Part shown: one piece after another, positions 3,313-27,568 of the stretch
Layout: each line of letters opens with the position of its first letter
How positions within the stretch are numbered: position 1 is the stretch's first letter
NCBI GenBank assembly: GCA_945983355.1
Contig: CAMFSU010000049.1
Coordinates: 1-32,778, forward strand
Direction: 5' to 3'
Length of the DNA stretch: 32,778 bases
Source: an uncultured Clostridia bacterium
GTDB lineage: Bacteria > Bacillota > Clostridia > Oscillospirales > Acutalibacteraceae
Translations under genes and position numbers: made by a program
Notes under the pieces: model-generated
Databases searched by the model: none
What the model was told of the DNA's origin: nothing
The model's input: only the letters and a program-made list of their open reading frames with translations

Positions 3313-5590
3313 AAGCTTATATATTTCGGCCTTTGGTGGTGTTAAGGACCTGAGACTTGACTTTGAAAATGATTTTACCGTTATTTTCGGTGAAAACGAG
3401 CAGGGCAAAACCACCATTATGAATTTTATTAAAATGATGTTTTACGGTAGTGAACGTGCCAAGGGCGACCTTGCAAAAAGCCCCCGCAAAAAGTACACCC
3501 CATGGGACAACAGCCAAATGTCAGGCAGTATTGACTTTGAAAAAGACGGTAAAAGCTTTCGACTTGAACGCATTTTCGGTGAATCAAACTCTACCGACAA
3601 GGTAACCCTTATTGATAAGGATTTAGGAAAGCGTGAAACCGTTTCGGCAGATATTGGCGCCAAAATTTTAGGGCTTTCTGCCCCCGCGTTTGAACGCAGT
3701 ATCTTTATTGGTCAGTTTGGTTTTCCCGAAAGCAATGCTGCGGCCGAGGGTGAAATAAATTCAAAGCTTTCAAACATTGCACTAACCGGCAGTGAGGACA
3801 TATCCTTTGATGAGGTTTATGCCCGACTTGAAAAGGCAAAGCTGCAGCTGTCTTCAAAAAGCGGAAAAACAGGCACTTATGATAAAAACCTTATCGCCTT
3901 AAAAAACTTAAACGAACAGCTTGAAAAAGCCGAGGGTGATGCTGAAAAAATTGCCGTTGGTCGCCAAAAGGCCGCCGAAATTGTAAAAGAAATTGAAGCT
4001 TTGCAACAAAAAGCCGATGCTTTAAAGCAAAAAATTGATAAAGAGCAGGACTTTAAAAACGCAAATAAGCTGCGCGAGCTTTTGGCGCTTAAAGAAGAGC
4101 TTGAAAAAATTACGGCCGAGCTTACACTTGAAAACGGCAGCAAAATTGATGAAATGTTTCTTAAAAAAATTGATTTTTGCCTTTCAAAAATCGGCGGTGT
4201 AAAGACCAAAATTGAAGCCAAGGAAAACGAAAACAAAATAATTAAGCAGGGGCTTGATTTAGCGCTTAACCCACAAAAAGCATCCCCTGAAAAATCGGCC
4301 GAGCTGAGTGACAAGATTAAAGCACTTGAAGAAAAGCAAACCGATTTAAAAACTGAGTATAACAACACCGAAAATGAATTAAACCAAAAAGCCGCACCCA
4401 ATTTTATTTTGCTTATTTTAGGCATTATATTGGGATTGGGCGGTGCAGCGCTATGCTCTTATAAAACATATATAGGTGTGGTTGTTGCCTTAATCGGCAT
4501 TATCTTATGTGTGGTATTTCTTGTTATCACAAGCTCGAAAAACGCCAAGAAAAAAGCACTTGAAGGTCGGCTTTTAAACATTAAGCTTGAGCTTAATGAG
4601 CTTATGACCGTTTTAACCCTTGAAAAATCAAACCTTAATGCCATTACCACCGCATTAAATTCAAATGCGGCGATGATTGAAAACCAGCAAAACCACCTTA
4701 AAGAAAATGATGAAAAAATTGAAGAGCTTTTAAAGGAAAAAGCCGATTACGAAACCGAGCTTTCAACCCTTTTGGGCAATACCTTTAACACAACCGACAT
4801 TGACAGTACGCTTGATGCGCTTCGCCACAAGGCCGGCGAACAAAAGGAAATTAAGCAAAAAATTAACTATATTTTAAAGGATGTCGGCAACATTTCTTAT
4901 GAAGAGGCGGCACAAAAAATTAAAGAGGCCGAAAGCTTTGAAATTGAAGACGACTTTGATGCCATAAAGCAAGAATTTTCTAACATTTCGGATGAAATTT
5001 TAAACCGGAAAACCACCGCTACCGAAATTTTAACCGAAATTAAAGCCATGACAAAGGTAATGGATAACCCCGAGGCGATAAAATCACAAATTGCCGATTT
5101 GACCGCCAAGTCACAGTCACAAAAAGAGTATTTAGATGCTTTAAATCTTGCAATGACTACCCTTTCAAACAGCTTTGCAGAGGTTAGGCGAAACTATGGC
5201 TCGGCACTGGACAGCAAAACCGCCGAAATTTTTAAGGGTATTACAGGCGGCAAATACAAAGCCGTTAATGTTTCAAAATCGTTTGACATTTCGGTTGAAA
5301 AGGCCGACACCTTTGGCAGCTTTGAAATTGGTTATCTTTCAAGCGGTACGGTTGACCAAGCGTATTTAAGCTTACGCCTTGCGGTCAGCGAATTTATGGC
5401 CGACACAAACGGTGCTTTACCCATTTTGCTTGACGATTCGCTTACACAGTTTGATGATAAGCGCCAAAAAACCGCTTTGGAATTTTTAAAGGATTATTCA
5501 AACAAAAACCAAATTATAATGTTTACCTGCCATAAGGCAATAAGCGACACCGCCGAAGCTTTGGGTGGTAAGAAAATCAGTATATCTTAA
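3302..5590 (+). CDS. YhaN/SbcC-like SMC-family ATPase
   Basis: A 762-residue protein with an ABC/SMC ATPase split across its two ends. The N-terminus carries Walker A GENEQGKTT (30-38). The C-terminus carries a signature-like LSSGTVDQAYLSLRLA and a Walker B PILLDDSLTQFDD. Long charged coiled-coil stretches (about 170-350 and 410-600) lie between them. The middle contains two hydrophobic segments around residues 367-410 (FILLILGIILGLGGAALCS and VVVALIGIILCVVFLVI), so the coiled coil seems anchored in the membrane, as in Bacillus YhaN-type proteins and unlike classical SbcC. It is shorter than SbcC (about 1000 residues). It overlaps its nuclease partner by 11 bases and is followed by a strong terminator. 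Confidence 0.88.
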   Translation: MKIKSLYISAFGGVKDLRLDFENDFTVIFGENEQGKTTIMNFIKMMFYGSERAKGDLAKSPRKKYTPWDNSQMSGSIDFEKDGKSFRLERIFGESNSTDKVTLIDKDLGKRETVSADIGAKILGLSAPAFERSIFIGQFGFPESNAAAEGEINSKLSNIALTGSEDISFDEVYARLEKAKLQLSSKSGKTGTYDKNLIALKNLNEQLEKAEGDAEKIAVGRQKAAEIVKEIEALQQKADALKQKIDKEQDFKNANKLRELLALKEELEKITAELTLENGSKIDEMFLKKIDFCLSKIGGVKTKIEAKENENKIIKQGLDLALNPQKASPEKSAELSDKIKALEEKQTDLKTEYNNTENELNQKAAPNFILLILGIILGLGGAALCSYKTYIGVVVALIGIILCVVFLVITSSKNAKKKALEGRLLNIKLELNELMTVLTLEKSNLNAITTALNSNAAMIENQQNHLKENDEKIEELLKEKADYETELSTLLGNTFNTTDIDSTLDALRHKAGEQKEIKQKINYILKDVGNISYEEAAQKIKEAESFEIEDDFDAIKQEFSNISDEILNRKTTATEILTEIKAMTKVMDNPEAIKSQIADLTAKSQSQKEYLDALNLAMTTLSNSFAEVRRNYGSALDSKTAEIFKGITGGKYKAVNVSKSFDISVEKADTFGSFEIGYLSSGTVDQAYLSLRLAVSEFMADTNGALPILLDDSLTQFDDKRQKTALEFLKDYSNKNQIIMFTCHKAISDTAEALGGKKISIS

Positions 5591-7217: not shown

Positions 7218-7246
7218 TTGACAAATTAAATTTGTTTTGATATAAT
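7218..7246 (+). promoter_or_regulatory. Perfect-consensus sigma-A promoter of a miniprotein gene
   Basis: TTGACA (7218-7223) begins on the base after the cls stop codon, TATAAT (7241-7246) follows after exactly 17 bases, and TGA before the -10 gives an extended -10. This matches the consensus at every position and should be very strong unless repressed. Confidence 0.9.
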
Positions 7247-7667: not shown

Positions 7668-10070
7668 ATGACTAAGCTTTCAAGCACAAAGCTTGCCACA
7701 CTTATAGAAAAAAAGCTGTCCCACAATTTTGGCGTTTCACCCGCCCAAGCATCTGACGAGCTTTTTTATAAAGCAAGTGTTTTAACACTGCTTGATATTA
7801 TGAAGGAACGCAGAAGCGAATTTAAAAAAGCTACTGCCGAGCAACAGGCAAAAACCGTTTACTATTTAAGTATGGAATTTTTGATGGGCCGTTCCTTTAA
7901 AAATAACCTTTTTAATATGGATTTAACCTCTACCATGGAAAAGGCATTAGCAAGGTTTGGCGTAAAGCTTGAAAACCTTTACGAATTAGAGCCCGACGCA
8001 GGTCTTGGTAACGGCGGTCTTGGTCGACTTGCTGCCTGCTTCTTGGATGCCCTTTCAAGCGGTGGATATTCCGCTATGGGCTATTGCATAAATTATGAGC
8101 TTGGCATTTTCCGTCAAAAGCTTGTTGACGGCTGGCAGACCGAAATGCCTGACTTTTGGCTTCCCGGCGGCGGCGTTTGGCTTGAAGCTCGACCCGGCTC
8201 TGCTGTGGATGTAAACTTTGACGGCTATATTAACGAATGGTGGGAAAACGGCTATCACCATATTGAACACTGCGACTATCAAACCGTTCGCGCCGTACCC
8301 TATGACCTTATGGTTGCAGGTAAGGACGGTAAAACCATTAACGCCCTTCGCCTTTGGAGTGCGGAATGTCGCGATTTTGATATGTCGGCATTTAACCAAG
8401 GTGACTATGTACGTGCTATCGAACAGCGTGCAATGGCTGAAACCATTTCAAAGGTATTATACCCTGCTGACAACCATTATGAAGGTAAATCGTTGCGACT
8501 TCGCCAACAATATTTCTTGGTGTCAGCATCAATTCAGGATATTTTGCACCGCCATTTGCGCACCTATAACACGCTTGACAATTTGCCCGACAAGGTGGCA
8601 ATTCATATTAACGATACCCACCCAACGCTTTCTATTCCCGAGCTTATGAGATTTTTGCTTGATGAATGTGGCTACACTTGGGAGGATGCTTGGGCACTTG
8701 TTACCAAAACAGTTGCCTATACCAATCACACCATTATGCAGGAAGCTCTTGAATGCTGGTCCGAAGGACTTATTAAAGAACGTCTTCCCCGCATTTATCA
8801 AATTATTAAAGAAATTGACAGGCGTTGGCGCCAAGAGGTTATTGAAAAAACAGGCGATTTGGGCCTTGCTGAACGCACAAGCGTTATTTCAAACGGTGTT
8901 GTCAGAATGGCAAACCTTTGCTGTGCAACCTGTCACACCGTAAACGGCGTTTCAAAGCTTCACAGTAAAATTTTGGTTGACGAATTATTCAAGGATTATG
9001 TTCGCTTGTCACCCGATAAATTTACAAATGTTACAAACGGTATTGCACACAGGCGTTGGCTTTGCTGCGCCAATCCCGAGCTTACATCTTTCTTAACCGA
9101 CACCATTGGCGATGACTTTATTAAGGATGCAAGAAACCTTGAAAAGCTTATGGCATTTAAGGACGATAAAGCCGTTACTGACAAGCTGAATGAAATTAAG
9201 CTGCATAACAAACAACGCTTTGCAAAATATATTAAGGATGAAACAGGCATTATTTTAAACCCTGATTCTATTTTTGATATGCAGGTTAAGCGCCTTCACG
9301 AATATAAGCGCCAACACCTTAATGTTTTAAACATTATAAGCGAATACCAGTTTATTAAAAACAACCCCAACGCCCCCTTTACACCAAAAACCTATATCTT
9401 TGGCGCAAAGGCAGCACCAGGTTATCTTTTTGCTAAACAGGTTATTCAAATGATTTATAAGCTTTCCTGTCTGCTTGAAAACGACCCCGATGTTAAGGAT
9501 AAGCTTAAAATCTTATTCCTTGAAAATTACCGCGTTACTATGGCAGAGCTTATGATTCCCTCTGCCGACATTAGTGAACAAATTTCACTTGCTTCTACCG
9601 AAGCCAGCGGTACAGGTAATATGAAGCTTATGATGAACGGTGCAATCACCTTGGGTACCGAAGATGGCGCAAATGTTGAAATTCACAGTGAGGTTGGGGA
9701 TGACAACATTATCATTTTCGGTATGCAAACACCTGAGGTTTTGCGTTTGCAAAAGCAGGGTTACAACCCGTATGAATATTATAACAATAACGAAACTTTA
9801 CGCGAGGCCTTGGACTTTATTGGCAAGGGCTTTGGCGGTATGAATTTTGACAGCATTTATCATTCGCTTAAAAATCACGATAATTATATGGCTTTGGCCG
9901 ACTTTGCTGATTATCAGTCAGCCCAAAGAAAAGCAACCGAGCTTTATAACGACCGTGATACTTGGAACAAGATGTCACTTGTAAACATTGCAAAATCAGG
10001 CGTGTTTGCGGCTGACCGTTCTATTGAAGATTATGCGCGTGATATTTGGCACATTAAACCGGTTGAGTAA
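7668..10070 (+). CDS. glgP: Glycogen/maltodextrin phosphorylase
   Basis: An 800-residue GT35 phosphorylase that releases glucose 1-phosphate from alpha-1,4-glucan ends using phosphate and pyridoxal phosphate. Family signatures run the whole length: YYLSMEFLMGR near residue 65, LGNGGLGRLAACFLDA near 107, HINDTHP near 310, KRLHEYKRQ near 540, and the cofactor site EASGTGNMKLMMNGA with the Schiff-base lysine at K653. The start has GGAGATG at the proper distance. It is followed two bases later by a GH13 enzyme, so linear chains and branched or short dextrins are probably handled by one transcript. Glycogen versus maltodextrin preference cannot be decided from sequence. Confidence 0.97.
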   Translation: MTKLSSTKLATLIEKKLSHNFGVSPAQASDELFYKASVLTLLDIMKERRSEFKKATAEQQAKTVYYLSMEFLMGRSFKNNLFNMDLTSTMEKALARFGVKLENLYELEPDAGLGNGGLGRLAACFLDALSSGGYSAMGYCINYELGIFRQKLVDGWQTEMPDFWLPGGGVWLEARPGSAVDVNFDGYINEWWENGYHHIEHCDYQTVRAVPYDLMVAGKDGKTINALRLWSAECRDFDMSAFNQGDYVRAIEQRAMAETISKVLYPADNHYEGKSLRLRQQYFLVSASIQDILHRHLRTYNTLDNLPDKVAIHINDTHPTLSIPELMRFLLDECGYTWEDAWALVTKTVAYTNHTIMQEALECWSEGLIKERLPRIYQIIKEIDRRWRQEVIEKTGDLGLAERTSVISNGVVRMANLCCATCHTVNGVSKLHSKILVDELFKDYVRLSPDKFTNVTNGIAHRRWLCCANPELTSFLTDTIGDDFIKDARNLEKLMAFKDDKAVTDKLNEIKLHNKQRFAKYIKDETGIILNPDSIFDMQVKRLHEYKRQHLNVLNIISEYQFIKNNPNAPFTPKTYIFGAKAAPGYLFAKQVIQMIYKLSCLLENDPDVKDKLKILFLENYRVTMAELMIPSADISEQISLASTEASGTGNMKLMMNGAITLGTEDGANVEIHSEVGDDNIIIFGMQTPEVLRLQKQGYNPYEYYNNNETLREALDFIGKGFGGMNFDSIYHSLKNHDNYMALADFADYQSAQRKATELYNDRDTWNKMSLVNIAKSGVFAADRSIEDYARDIWHIKPVE

Positions 10071-19984: not shown

Positions 19985-20597
19985 AAAAGTCCTCAATTTC
20001 TGTGTAATTTTTTAACACTTGCCTTACCGCACCATAGGAAAAGCCCTTACGAACAAGCGCGGCAAAAACCTTTTCGGCGCCATTTTCAGCGCTCAGCTTT
20101 GTGCGGTATTTTTTATCAATTAACGCTTTAATTTGCTCTTCCTCACTGACCTCTAAATCAGATAAAACCTCTTTTGCAATATCATAGGGCACACCCTTTT
20201 GAAAAAGCTTATTAAGCATTTCGCGTTTTGAAACATTTTCCCTTAAAAGTCGGTCACGGTAATTTTCAGCAAAACGGCGGTCATCAATAAGACCAACCTC
20301 TTGAAGCCGTGCAATAACCTGTGCCGATGCTTTTTGGTCAAAGCCCGCTTGACACAGTTTCTTGTAAAGCTCGTTTGAGGTGCGGTCCTTTCGGTCAAGA
20401 TACCACACCGCGCGGGATTTCGCCCTTTGATACTGCGACTGAAAGACCAAAGCGTTAAGCTTTTCTTCGGTTAAGCTATCACCTTTTTTAAGAAAATGCT
20501 CACCTACAACATTATTATCAATTAAAACCTCTTCACCGTTTGACAAAGAAATTTTTGTTAAATGAAGCTTGTCTTTTTTAATCTCTGAAATTTGCAT
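19977..20597 (-). CDS. recX: Regulatory protein RecX
   Basis: RecX modulates RecA filaments. The 206-residue protein has the three-helix repeats of the family: RAVWYLDRKDRTSNELYKKLCQAGF, VIARLQEVGLIDDRRFAENYRDRLL and a C-terminal VFAALVRKGFSYGAVRQVLKNY. The ATG overlaps the recA stop by one base (TAATG), the classic recA-recX arrangement, so RecX is made in proportion to RecA. Confidence 0.93.
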   Translation of the reverse strand: MQISEIKKDKLHLTKISLSNGEEVLIDNNVVGEHFLKKGDSLTEEKLNALVFQSQYQRAKSRAVWYLDRKDRTSNELYKKLCQAGFDQKASAQVIARLQEVGLIDDRRFAENYRDRLLRENVSKREMLNKLFQKGVPYDIAKEVLSDLEVSEEEQIKALIDKKYRTKLSAENGAEKVFAALVRKGFSYGAVRQVLKNYTEIEDFYV

Positions 20598-21739
20598 TAG
20601 TCGTCAACTGCAATGTCGATATCGATTGATTTGCGTGGACGGGCAATCGGTTCGGTCGGCATAATTACATCTTCATCATCATCTTTAACGGGGGCTGTAA
20701 TACTTTTTGCAGCGTCCGAAAGCTTTGCCATAATTTCGTTTTCGATTTTTTCGGCAAGCTCGGCATTATCTTCAAAAAGCTTTTTAACATTATCGCGCCC
20801 TTGACCCAAACGGGTTTCACCGTAATAGAACCACGCGCCCGACTTTTTAATAACGCCTGTGTCAACACCTGCATCAACGATTTCGCCTGTGTGGGAAATA
20901 CCTGTGCCGTACATAATGTCAAATTCGGCAACCTTAAAGGGTGGCGCCACCTTATTTTTAACAATTTTTGCCTTGGTATGAACACCTATAATATCGCTGC
21001 CGTCCTTAATCGGCTCGCCCTTTCTGACATCAATACGAACTGATGAATAGAATTTAAGCGCACGACCACCTGTGGTAACCTCAGGATTGCCATACATAAC
21101 GCCGATTTTTTCACGCAATTGGTTAATGAAAATTGCGGCGCAGTTTGTTTTTGAAAGTGCACCTGTAAGCTTGCGAAGTGCCTGTGACATAAGGCGGGCT
21201 AACTGACCAACGTGGTTGTCGCCCATTTCACCTTCAATTTCGGCACGGGTAACAAGAGCCGCTACCGAGTCGATAACAATAATATCAATAGCGCCTGAAC
21301 GCACTAACGCTTCGGCAATTTCAAGGGCTTGCTCGCCCGAATCAGGTTGAGAAACTAAAAGTGAATCAATATCAACACCCAAATTTGCTGCATAAACAGG
21401 GTCCAAAGCGTGTTCAACGTCAATAAATGCAGCAGTACCGCCTGCCTTTTGGGCTTCGGCAACACAGTGAAGCGCAACGGTGGTTTTACCTGATGATTCG
21501 GGACCGTAAATTTCAACAATACGGCCTTTTGGAATACCGCCGATACCGAGCGCAACATCAAGTGTTAAGGAGCCGGTTTTTATATGCTCAACATTCATAC
21601 CGCTGTTTTCGCCAAGGCGCATTACAGCACCTTTACCAAACTGCTTTTCAATTTGGTCCATTGCGGTTTTCAGCGCTTTTTGTTTTTCTTCAGATTCAAC
21701 TAATTTAACTGCGGTTTTTGTAGTAGTACTTTTTGCCAC
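20597..21739 (-). CDS. recA: Recombinase RecA
   Basis: The 380-residue RecA drives homologous recombination and LexA self-cleavage. Walker A is GPESSGKTT (79-87). The MAW signature [19 protein letters not shown] and the loop [10 protein letters not shown] are intact, as is the acidic C-terminal tail. It begins only 15 bases after prmC with GGAGGAATT as ribosome binding site. Neither that gap nor the end of prmC contains a GAAC-N4-GTTC SOS box, so transcription probably comes from further upstream in the operon. Confidence 0.98.
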
Positions 21740-27263: not shown

Positions 27264-27292
27264 TTGACAAAGTGATGAAAATGCACTATAAT
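27264..27292 (+). promoter_or_regulatory. Perfect-consensus sigma-A promoter of the LexA-boxed miniprotein
   Basis: TTGACA (27264-27269) and TATAAT (27287-27292) are separated by exactly 17 bases. Both hexamers match consensus at all positions. Start of transcription is expected near 27299, immediately before the LexA box. Confidence 0.92.
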
Positions 27293-27300
27293 ACAGATAA

Positions 27301-27314
27301 CGAACAAATGTTCG
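27301..27314 (+). promoter_or_regulatory. LexA (SOS) operator
   Basis: CGAACAAATGTTCG has perfectly inverted CGAAC/GTTCG arms around a four-base centre. It agrees with the Gram-positive LexA/DinR box (GAAC-N4-GTTC core) and matches the Bacillus consensus at all but the last base. It lies from about +2 to +15 of the strong promoter and before the ribosome binding site GGGAGGT, an ideal place for repression. It is the only such box I found in the window. Confidence 0.85.
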
Positions 27315-27326
27315 GGAGGTAATAAA

Positions 27327-27494
27327 ATGACTTTTTTCGATATTTTAAGCACAGTTTTTGAATTTTTACTTGTTGCCGCACTTGTTTGGGGCATTTTTAA
27401 CGAGCACCGCCTTTTAGCGTTTGAACGCAAAATTGTGGCATATTTCCGCCGCAAAAGCTTCCGCGTGGTTAAATCGCAGCGTGCAATAAACTAA
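27327..27494 (+). CDS. 55-residue single-pass membrane miniprotein, probably SOS-induced
   Basis: ATG 27327, six bases after GGGAGGT, opens 55 codons. Residues 3-24 (FFDILSTVFEFLLVAALVWGIF) form a hydrophobic helix. The rest is basic: about ten Arg/Lys in 28-52, including FERKIVAYFRRKSFRVVKS, which could be an amphipathic cytoplasmic tail. There is no signal peptide, LysM or enzymatic motif. A consensus promoter, a LexA box and a terminator enclose it as a one-gene unit. SOS-controlled small membrane proteins of other bacteria block division (SidA, YneA) or depolarise the membrane (TisB). I see no homology to any of them, so the role is a hypothesis. Confidence 0.85.
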   Translation: MTFFDILSTVFEFLLVAALVWGIFNEHRLLAFERKIVAYFRRKSFRVVKSQRAIN

Positions 27495-27534: not shown

Positions 27535-27568
27535 GAAAAAAGACGGCGAAATTTCGCCGTCTTTTTTC
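27535..27568 (+). terminator. Intrinsic terminator after the LexA-boxed miniprotein
   Basis: A perfect 34-base palindrome with core GACGGCGAAATTTCGCCGTC flanked by A6 and T6. It lies 40 bases after the miniprotein stop and ten bases before the rsmE promoter, isolating the two units. Confidence 0.9.

Follow-up and report, generated by a model that had tools for sequence, protein, structure and literature searches.

A small, probably LexA-controlled membrane protein family of gut Clostridia and its possible role as an SOS division checkpoint

Introduction

Small SOS-induced membrane proteins that halt division via the septal synthase have been described in several bacteria (PMC13396833, PMC6851548, PMC4211646), and AlphaFold 3 models suggest FtsW as the target of several SOS-induced inhibitors (PMC13396833). 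YneA of Bacillus subtilis is a LexA-controlled, short-lived small protein whose single transmembrane helix acts on FtsW (PMC13396833, PMC6051672). The 55-residue protein described here resembles YneA in size, in its predicted membrane anchoring and in its probable control by LexA; its family may share the contact with FtsW and, in most genera other than its own, a short life. The two differ in that YneA has an extracellular LysM domain, whereas the present family gives no LysM match and has a tail predicted to be cytoplasmic, and in that the small gene is not adjacent to lexA in the genome studied. SosA of Staphylococcus aureus is a 77-residue SOS-induced division inhibitor, also with a single transmembrane helix, and its C-terminal end governs turnover; that end lies outside the cell and is cleared by CtpA (PMC6851548), whereas the C-terminus of the present protein is predicted to be cytoplasmic. 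Domain and predicted topology set the family apart from SosA, the comparison being one by description. SidA and DidA of Caulobacter are likewise very small damage-induced membrane proteins, which hold FtsW/I/N inactive (PMC4211646). They belong to another phylum, SidA being LexA-controlled and DidA SOS-independent, and are also compared by description.

The SulA gene of Escherichia coli likewise has a strong LexA operator, and its product differs from the present one in being a cytoplasmic FtsZ inhibitor and no membrane protein. A further likeness may lie in the fast proteolysis of SulA, which is degraded by Lon and targets FtsZ (PMC6051672). At the locus described here, neither an Rfam search nor a scan of the ORF for − strand promoters found an antisense-type element, in contrast to the TisB and DinQ systems of E. 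coli. TisB is paired with an antisense RNA. So is DinQ (PMC3567139), and both are SOS-linked single-transmembrane peptides (PMC3567139, PMC11575346).

That small SOS membrane checkpoint proteins exist is already known; what is new here is this protein family, together with its predicted topology and C-terminal motif. Among the titles and opening lines of abstracts of open-licence PMC papers (subscription papers and preprints lie outside this search), no such gene is described in these bacteria, nor is the way in which these gut Clostridia halt division after damage. The main text of a Clostridioides difficile LexA-regulon paper contains no word starting with "division" (PMC4234289). A metagenomic survey of gut LexA sites used genes assigned to COGs (PMC3998124), so that an orphan 55-residue gene would be missed. 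Should the protein be a true checkpoint, damage arrest in a large bacterial group could be tested through a single gene, and the convergence of unrelated small SOS proteins on FtsW would gain a case with a topology opposite to that of YneA.

Organization of the locus

The gene lies in a 32,778-nucleotide contig (the window), which belongs to a genome assembly of 1.57 Mb in 62 contigs, 97.7% complete, from an uncultured Clostridia bacterium. Its features are as follows.

27264..27292, + strand: sigma-70-type consensus promoter TTGACA-N17-TATAAT, matching at 12/12 consensus positions
27264-27269 and 27287-27292, + strand: −35 TTGACA and −10 TATAAT with a 17 nt spacer, read in the sequence
27301..27314, no strand assigned: LexA operator CGAACAAATGTTCG, just 3' of the −10, a perfect CGAACNNNNGTTCG match
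27314..27319, + strand: Shine-Dalgarno site GGGAGG, abutting the operator, by direct reading
27327..27494, + strand: ORF for a 55 aa single-pass membrane protein with ATG at 27327, from the reading frame, homologues and dN/dS
27339..27398, + strand: transmembrane helix spanning residues 5-24, E12 and W21 being conserved, from the hydropathy peak and alignment
27399..27491, + strand: predicted cytoplasmic part with an N-E-x6-E motif (E26, E33), RR (42) and a basic tail, from K/R distribution and alignment
27535..27568, + strand: hairpin terminator with a T-rich 3' arm, −23.6 kcal/mol, z −6.24

The initial annotation of this DNA had proposed a perfect promoter, a near-perfect LexA operator, a Shine-Dalgarno site and 55-codon gene for a protein with one helix and a basic tail, and a perfect terminator. 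All of these were recovered, and the operator turned out to be perfect. The hairpin, followed by T-rich sequence, lies ~40 nt 3' of the stop codon, beyond the end coordinate given by that annotation. A terminator pattern scan does not list it; the sole terminator-like match of that scan in the region is the operator palindrome itself, on the − strand. The + strand of the window has two perfect TTGACA-N17-TATAAT promoters, its − strand none. The second, at 7218-7246 (+), stands upstream of a phosphorylase-like ORF at 7668 and has no LexA box.

The pattern GAACNNNNGTTC occurs once in the window, at the small gene. A relaxed box (≤2 mismatches) is seen there 8 times against 9.4 expected. Such counts show no excess over chance; the case for the LexA box rests on conservation. 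Genome-wide there are 3 GAACNNNNGTTC sites, as against 57 for a reversed control pattern: one at the small gene, one upstream of a DinB-type polymerase and one within a 171-aa ORF. The genome encodes LexA, with Pfam LexA_DNA_bind and Peptidase_S24 domains, and its lexA gene carries AGAATAAATGTTCG immediately 5' of the Shine-Dalgarno site. The window also holds recA (20597-21739, − strand), which lies 15 nt after a prmC-like gene. No LexA box was seen 5' of recA in the window, and since that upstream stretch lacks one, recA may lie outside LexA control in this genome.

A family of small, predicted single-pass membrane proteins

The protein has one hydrophobic stretch, with a 19-residue Kyte-Doolittle peak of 2.24. 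Across 159 homologue entries (154 distinct proteins), the corresponding peak exceeds 1.6 in 158, and K/R is richer on the C-terminal side of the helix in all 159. By this positive-inside count the tail is predicted to be cytoplasmic, giving a predicted single-pass N-out/C-in topology. Homologues range from 48 to 137 aa (median 68). M1, E12, F24, E26, E33 and R42 are invariant across 30 genus proteins, and the E-x6-E motif is present in 150 of the 154 distinct proteins. A calculation gave no support to an unusually amphipathic second helix in the juxtamembrane segment. Among 25 pairs listed of 35 close pairs, dN/dS runs from 0.08 to 0.55, two being saturated at silent sites; a ratio below 1 in every unsaturated pair listed indicates purifying selection on the protein. 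Together with the residue conservation, these ratios rule out a non-coding sequence or leader peptide.

C-terminal ends such as -VA, -AA and -CA are ClpXP signals of the ssrA-tag type. The family proteins end in Ala in 82 of 105 cases (VA 37, CA 12, AA 12, others 21), and 10 of 17 further relatives do so, against 15 of 141 neighbouring ORFs taken as a control. The usual end outside the window's genus, -VA, -AA or -CA, is a possible degron. Within the genus a C-terminal Ala is rare (5/30), and the window protein lacks it.

No known protein family accounts for these proteins, none having been matched in Pfam or NCBIfam. Neither collection matches the window protein up to E 10. With 30 members searched against Pfam the best value is E 0.04, with no LysM up to E 1. 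In NCBIfam the best value is E 0.0091, for one relative and far under the family cut-off. Against PHROGs the window protein reaches E 0.068 at best, and the best of seven relatives E 0.034.

Conservation of the gene and its LexA box in the genus

A protein search found homologues in 33 of 37 genus genomes, the window's own genome counted; 23 further genomes of the order yielded none. All 33 genus carriers have a perfect GAACNNNNGTTC 5' of the start codon. The outer C and G of the operator are kept in 28 of 30 genus loci, with A replacing C in the other two, and the operator lies 12-16 nt from the start codon in these 30. A TTGAC...TAnnnT promoter accompanies the genus homologues in 29 of 30 cases and is also present in 80 of 105 upstream regions from the wider family. 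The operator core is kept in 41 of 42 loci from named genomes (the exception being L076); these loci come largely from the same organisms as the genus set. Related records are titled Clostridia, Oscillospiraceae, Ruminococcaceae or Eubacteriales bacterium and are largely gut and rumen metagenome assemblies. Ownership of the box by a neighbouring SOS gene was rejected because neighbours vary among loci, the commonest neighbour gene family being present at just 8 of 39 named-genome loci.

The four genus genomes without the gene, also negative in a profile search, comprise two that are 57 and 64% complete and two that are 96% complete (G025 and G029). In the latter pair lexA and its site are present, but searches for the gene and for GAACANNTGTTC sites both came up empty; the gene has either been lost or lies within the missing part of the assembly.

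The GAACANNTGTTC pattern occurs 70 times across 41 genus genomes, 37 times 5' of the small gene. Sixteen other sites lie ahead of dinB, 4 ahead of a second Y-family polymerase (Pfam confirmation for one of the four) and 2 ahead of a YpsA-type SLOG protein, leaving 11 unassigned. Three carriers (L211, L226, L234) were first found through the box and not through the protein. Since a reversed control pattern occurs 101 times in these genomes, it is the placement of the sites that is informative, not their number. The YpsA-type SLOG protein behind a LexA-type palindrome is seen at L206 (site 1024) and L214 (site 991).

Of 20 genus genomes searched for lexA, 18 yielded the gene, and in all 18 it is preceded by a site with ≤2 core mismatches. 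In 14 of the 18 (L237-L254) the site reads NGAATAAATGTTCG, with one half-site altered, so that the small gene matches the palindrome better than lexA itself.

Spread in the wider family

A profile built without regard to the LexA box (A2) was run against 298 genomes of the GTDB family (≥85% complete, 111 genera) and matched 115 genomes in 42 genera. In a class-wide sample it matched 2 of 391 genomes, both of the window's genus; seven family members of other genera listed in that sample gave no A2 match. An order-wide search with profile A1 returned 10 of 295 genomes, three of them (G061, G070, G285) unconvincing on reading.

The A2 family search lists 129 match rows, for which 122 upstream regions (105 + 17) were scored by one rule, with one genus member and a number of second copies among the 105. 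The operator core is perfect in 58 of the 122, has one mismatch in 36 and two or more in 28. Among the remaining seven rows, L001, L020, L077 and L078 have a perfect core, L079 has one core mismatch, and L081 and L086 have no box. Dinucleotide shuffles of the 105 regions gave on average 0.12 perfect and 4.8 one-mismatch cores, and the reversed sequences 0 and 2. A chance LexA box is ruled out by conservation, shuffles and reversed sequence alike, and because the box is conserved with the gene far above the shuffled level, the link to LexA is non-random.

LexA itself was detected (PF01726, E ≤0.001) in 112 of 115 carriers versus 145 of 183 non-carriers; the Fisher P of 3e-6 overstates this association because carriers are relatives and not independent. 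In 48 of the 105 family regions, and also at L079, L080, L088 and L120, a GAACATT half-operator runs into the −35, so that outside the genus the promoter would be bracketed by LexA sites.

The initial annotation had placed the gene under SOS control and called for a search of relatives for the same box. That search bore it out, with the box in 33/33 genus carriers and, at ≤1 core mismatch, in 94 of 122 regions of the wider family, upstream of a protein under purifying selection. Membership of the LexA (SOS) regulon as a stand-alone gene is strongly supported on these comparative grounds.

Phage-associated homologues

Four homologues have phage-like surroundings. In G023, which also carries a boxed copy, a 46-residue homologue (L092, 1501-1641) follows a 66-residue HTH protein and lies opposite an HTH-S24 repressor in a prophage-like region. 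A temperate-phage contig from a viral collection (L255) has the order integrase, HTH-S24 repressor, cro-like HTH gene and 46-residue homologue (3977-4114). The copies at L081 and L086 come after genes carrying DUF4406 and DUF3102. With the A1 profile all four homologues reach 30-46 bits; the top score among 2160 segment-preserving decoys is 15.6. L255 is the one contig of the viral collection with a homologue, two other viral scans showed no relative, and phage records gave no match to the window protein; a wide spread in phages was rejected on these grounds.

Proposed function and alternative explanations

In an undamaged cell, LexA bound between the −10 and the Shine-Dalgarno site would silence the consensus promoter. 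On damage, RecA filaments would trigger LexA self-cleavage and switch the gene on, and the product is predicted to insert as a single-pass membrane protein with its basic tail inside and its N-terminus outside. Through its conserved helix (with E12 and W21) and its juxtamembrane E26...E33...R42 segment it might then bind a membrane partner of the divisome, for which FtsW is the precedent, and delay septation during lesion bypass by the Y-family polymerases of the same regulon. The -VA/-AA/-CA or similar end found in most genera outside the window's own could be read by a cytoplasmic AAA+ protease such as ClpXP, and proteolysis of this kind would end the division block soon after LexA returns.

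We put at slightly above even the chance that the protein is an SOS-induced division-checkpoint protein of this kind, functionally like YneA, SosA and SidA but apparently unrelated to them, silenced by LexA, C-terminus inside and delaying septation. Regulon content, size, membrane location, the possible C-terminal degron and the phage homologues all fit such a role, which the initial annotation had put forward as a halt to division or an action on the membrane. Against it stand the 28 of 122 upstream regions with at least two core mismatches, the two 96%-complete genus genomes with lexA and its site but no gene, and the rarity of the Ala end in the window's genus; moreover, YneA and SosA work through an extracellular part, which this family is predicted to lack. 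A broader proposal, which we hold tentatively and think somewhat short of probable, makes this family of 42/111 genera the main non-repair SOS output, an N-out/C-in division checkpoint of novel design that works by way of its helix and a juxtamembrane motif on the cytoplasmic side, and that is removed, in most genera, by means of an ssrA-like C-terminal end. In temperate phages of related hosts, its position behind cro and opposite a self-cleaving CI repressor would offer a second route to damage timing.

The protein might instead serve the SOS response at the membrane away from the division machinery, tuning or holding translesion polymerases, cell-wall enzymes or a membrane protease. The genus regulon, in which the box stands mainly before the small gene and Y-family polymerases, is in keeping with this, as is a basic tail close to the membrane, but the phage homologues follow cro-like genes with no polymerase in view, and the loci compared show neither a fusion nor a common operon with a polymerase; we regard such a role as unlikely, if a serious contender. 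A dormancy peptide like TisB or DinQ, a small cationic SOS-induced peptide that reduces the membrane potential and slows growth while leaving the divisome unblocked, would also have a single helix, a basic tail and SOS control, and DinQ is a LexA-linked toxic single-transmembrane peptide (PMC3567139). At the present locus, the merely 12-16 nt between operator and start in 30 genus loci leave little room for antisense control. Systems of the TisB/DinQ type rely on such control. No Rfam family matches the locus, and no − strand promoter-like site falls inside the ORF, the two listed both lying outside it. Invariant E12, E26, E33 and R42 alongside a very variable tail length (48-137 aa in all) further suggest a specific partner, and we consider a dormancy peptide about as unlikely.

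Derivation from a phage early gene, retained in the host for a phage-related end such as lysis, exclusion or prophage control and with LexA timing taken over from prophage induction, has on its side the homologues carried by a temperate-phage contig and by prophage-like and phage-like regions, which score well above the decoys (30-46 bits vs 15.6). It appears improbable, given a single contig in the viral collection, a window protein unmatched in phage records, and a chromosomal form that spans 42 sampled genera and shows no common neighbourhood in the genus.

Loci without the usual box

Three second, mostly short copies in family genomes (L259, L260, L268) have no box, and L268 resembles the phage-surrounded copies L081 and L086. 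Four loci of genus g234 (L137, L165, L167, L168) have no usual box; TTGACAAACGCAA...TTGTGGTATACTG, common to all four, spans their promoter and may be a different operator. In genus g185 (L124, L136, L140) the box is absent and the LexA DNA-binding domain, too, gives a weak match (E 1e-8 to 5e-7), which would suit a joint change of repressor and operator.
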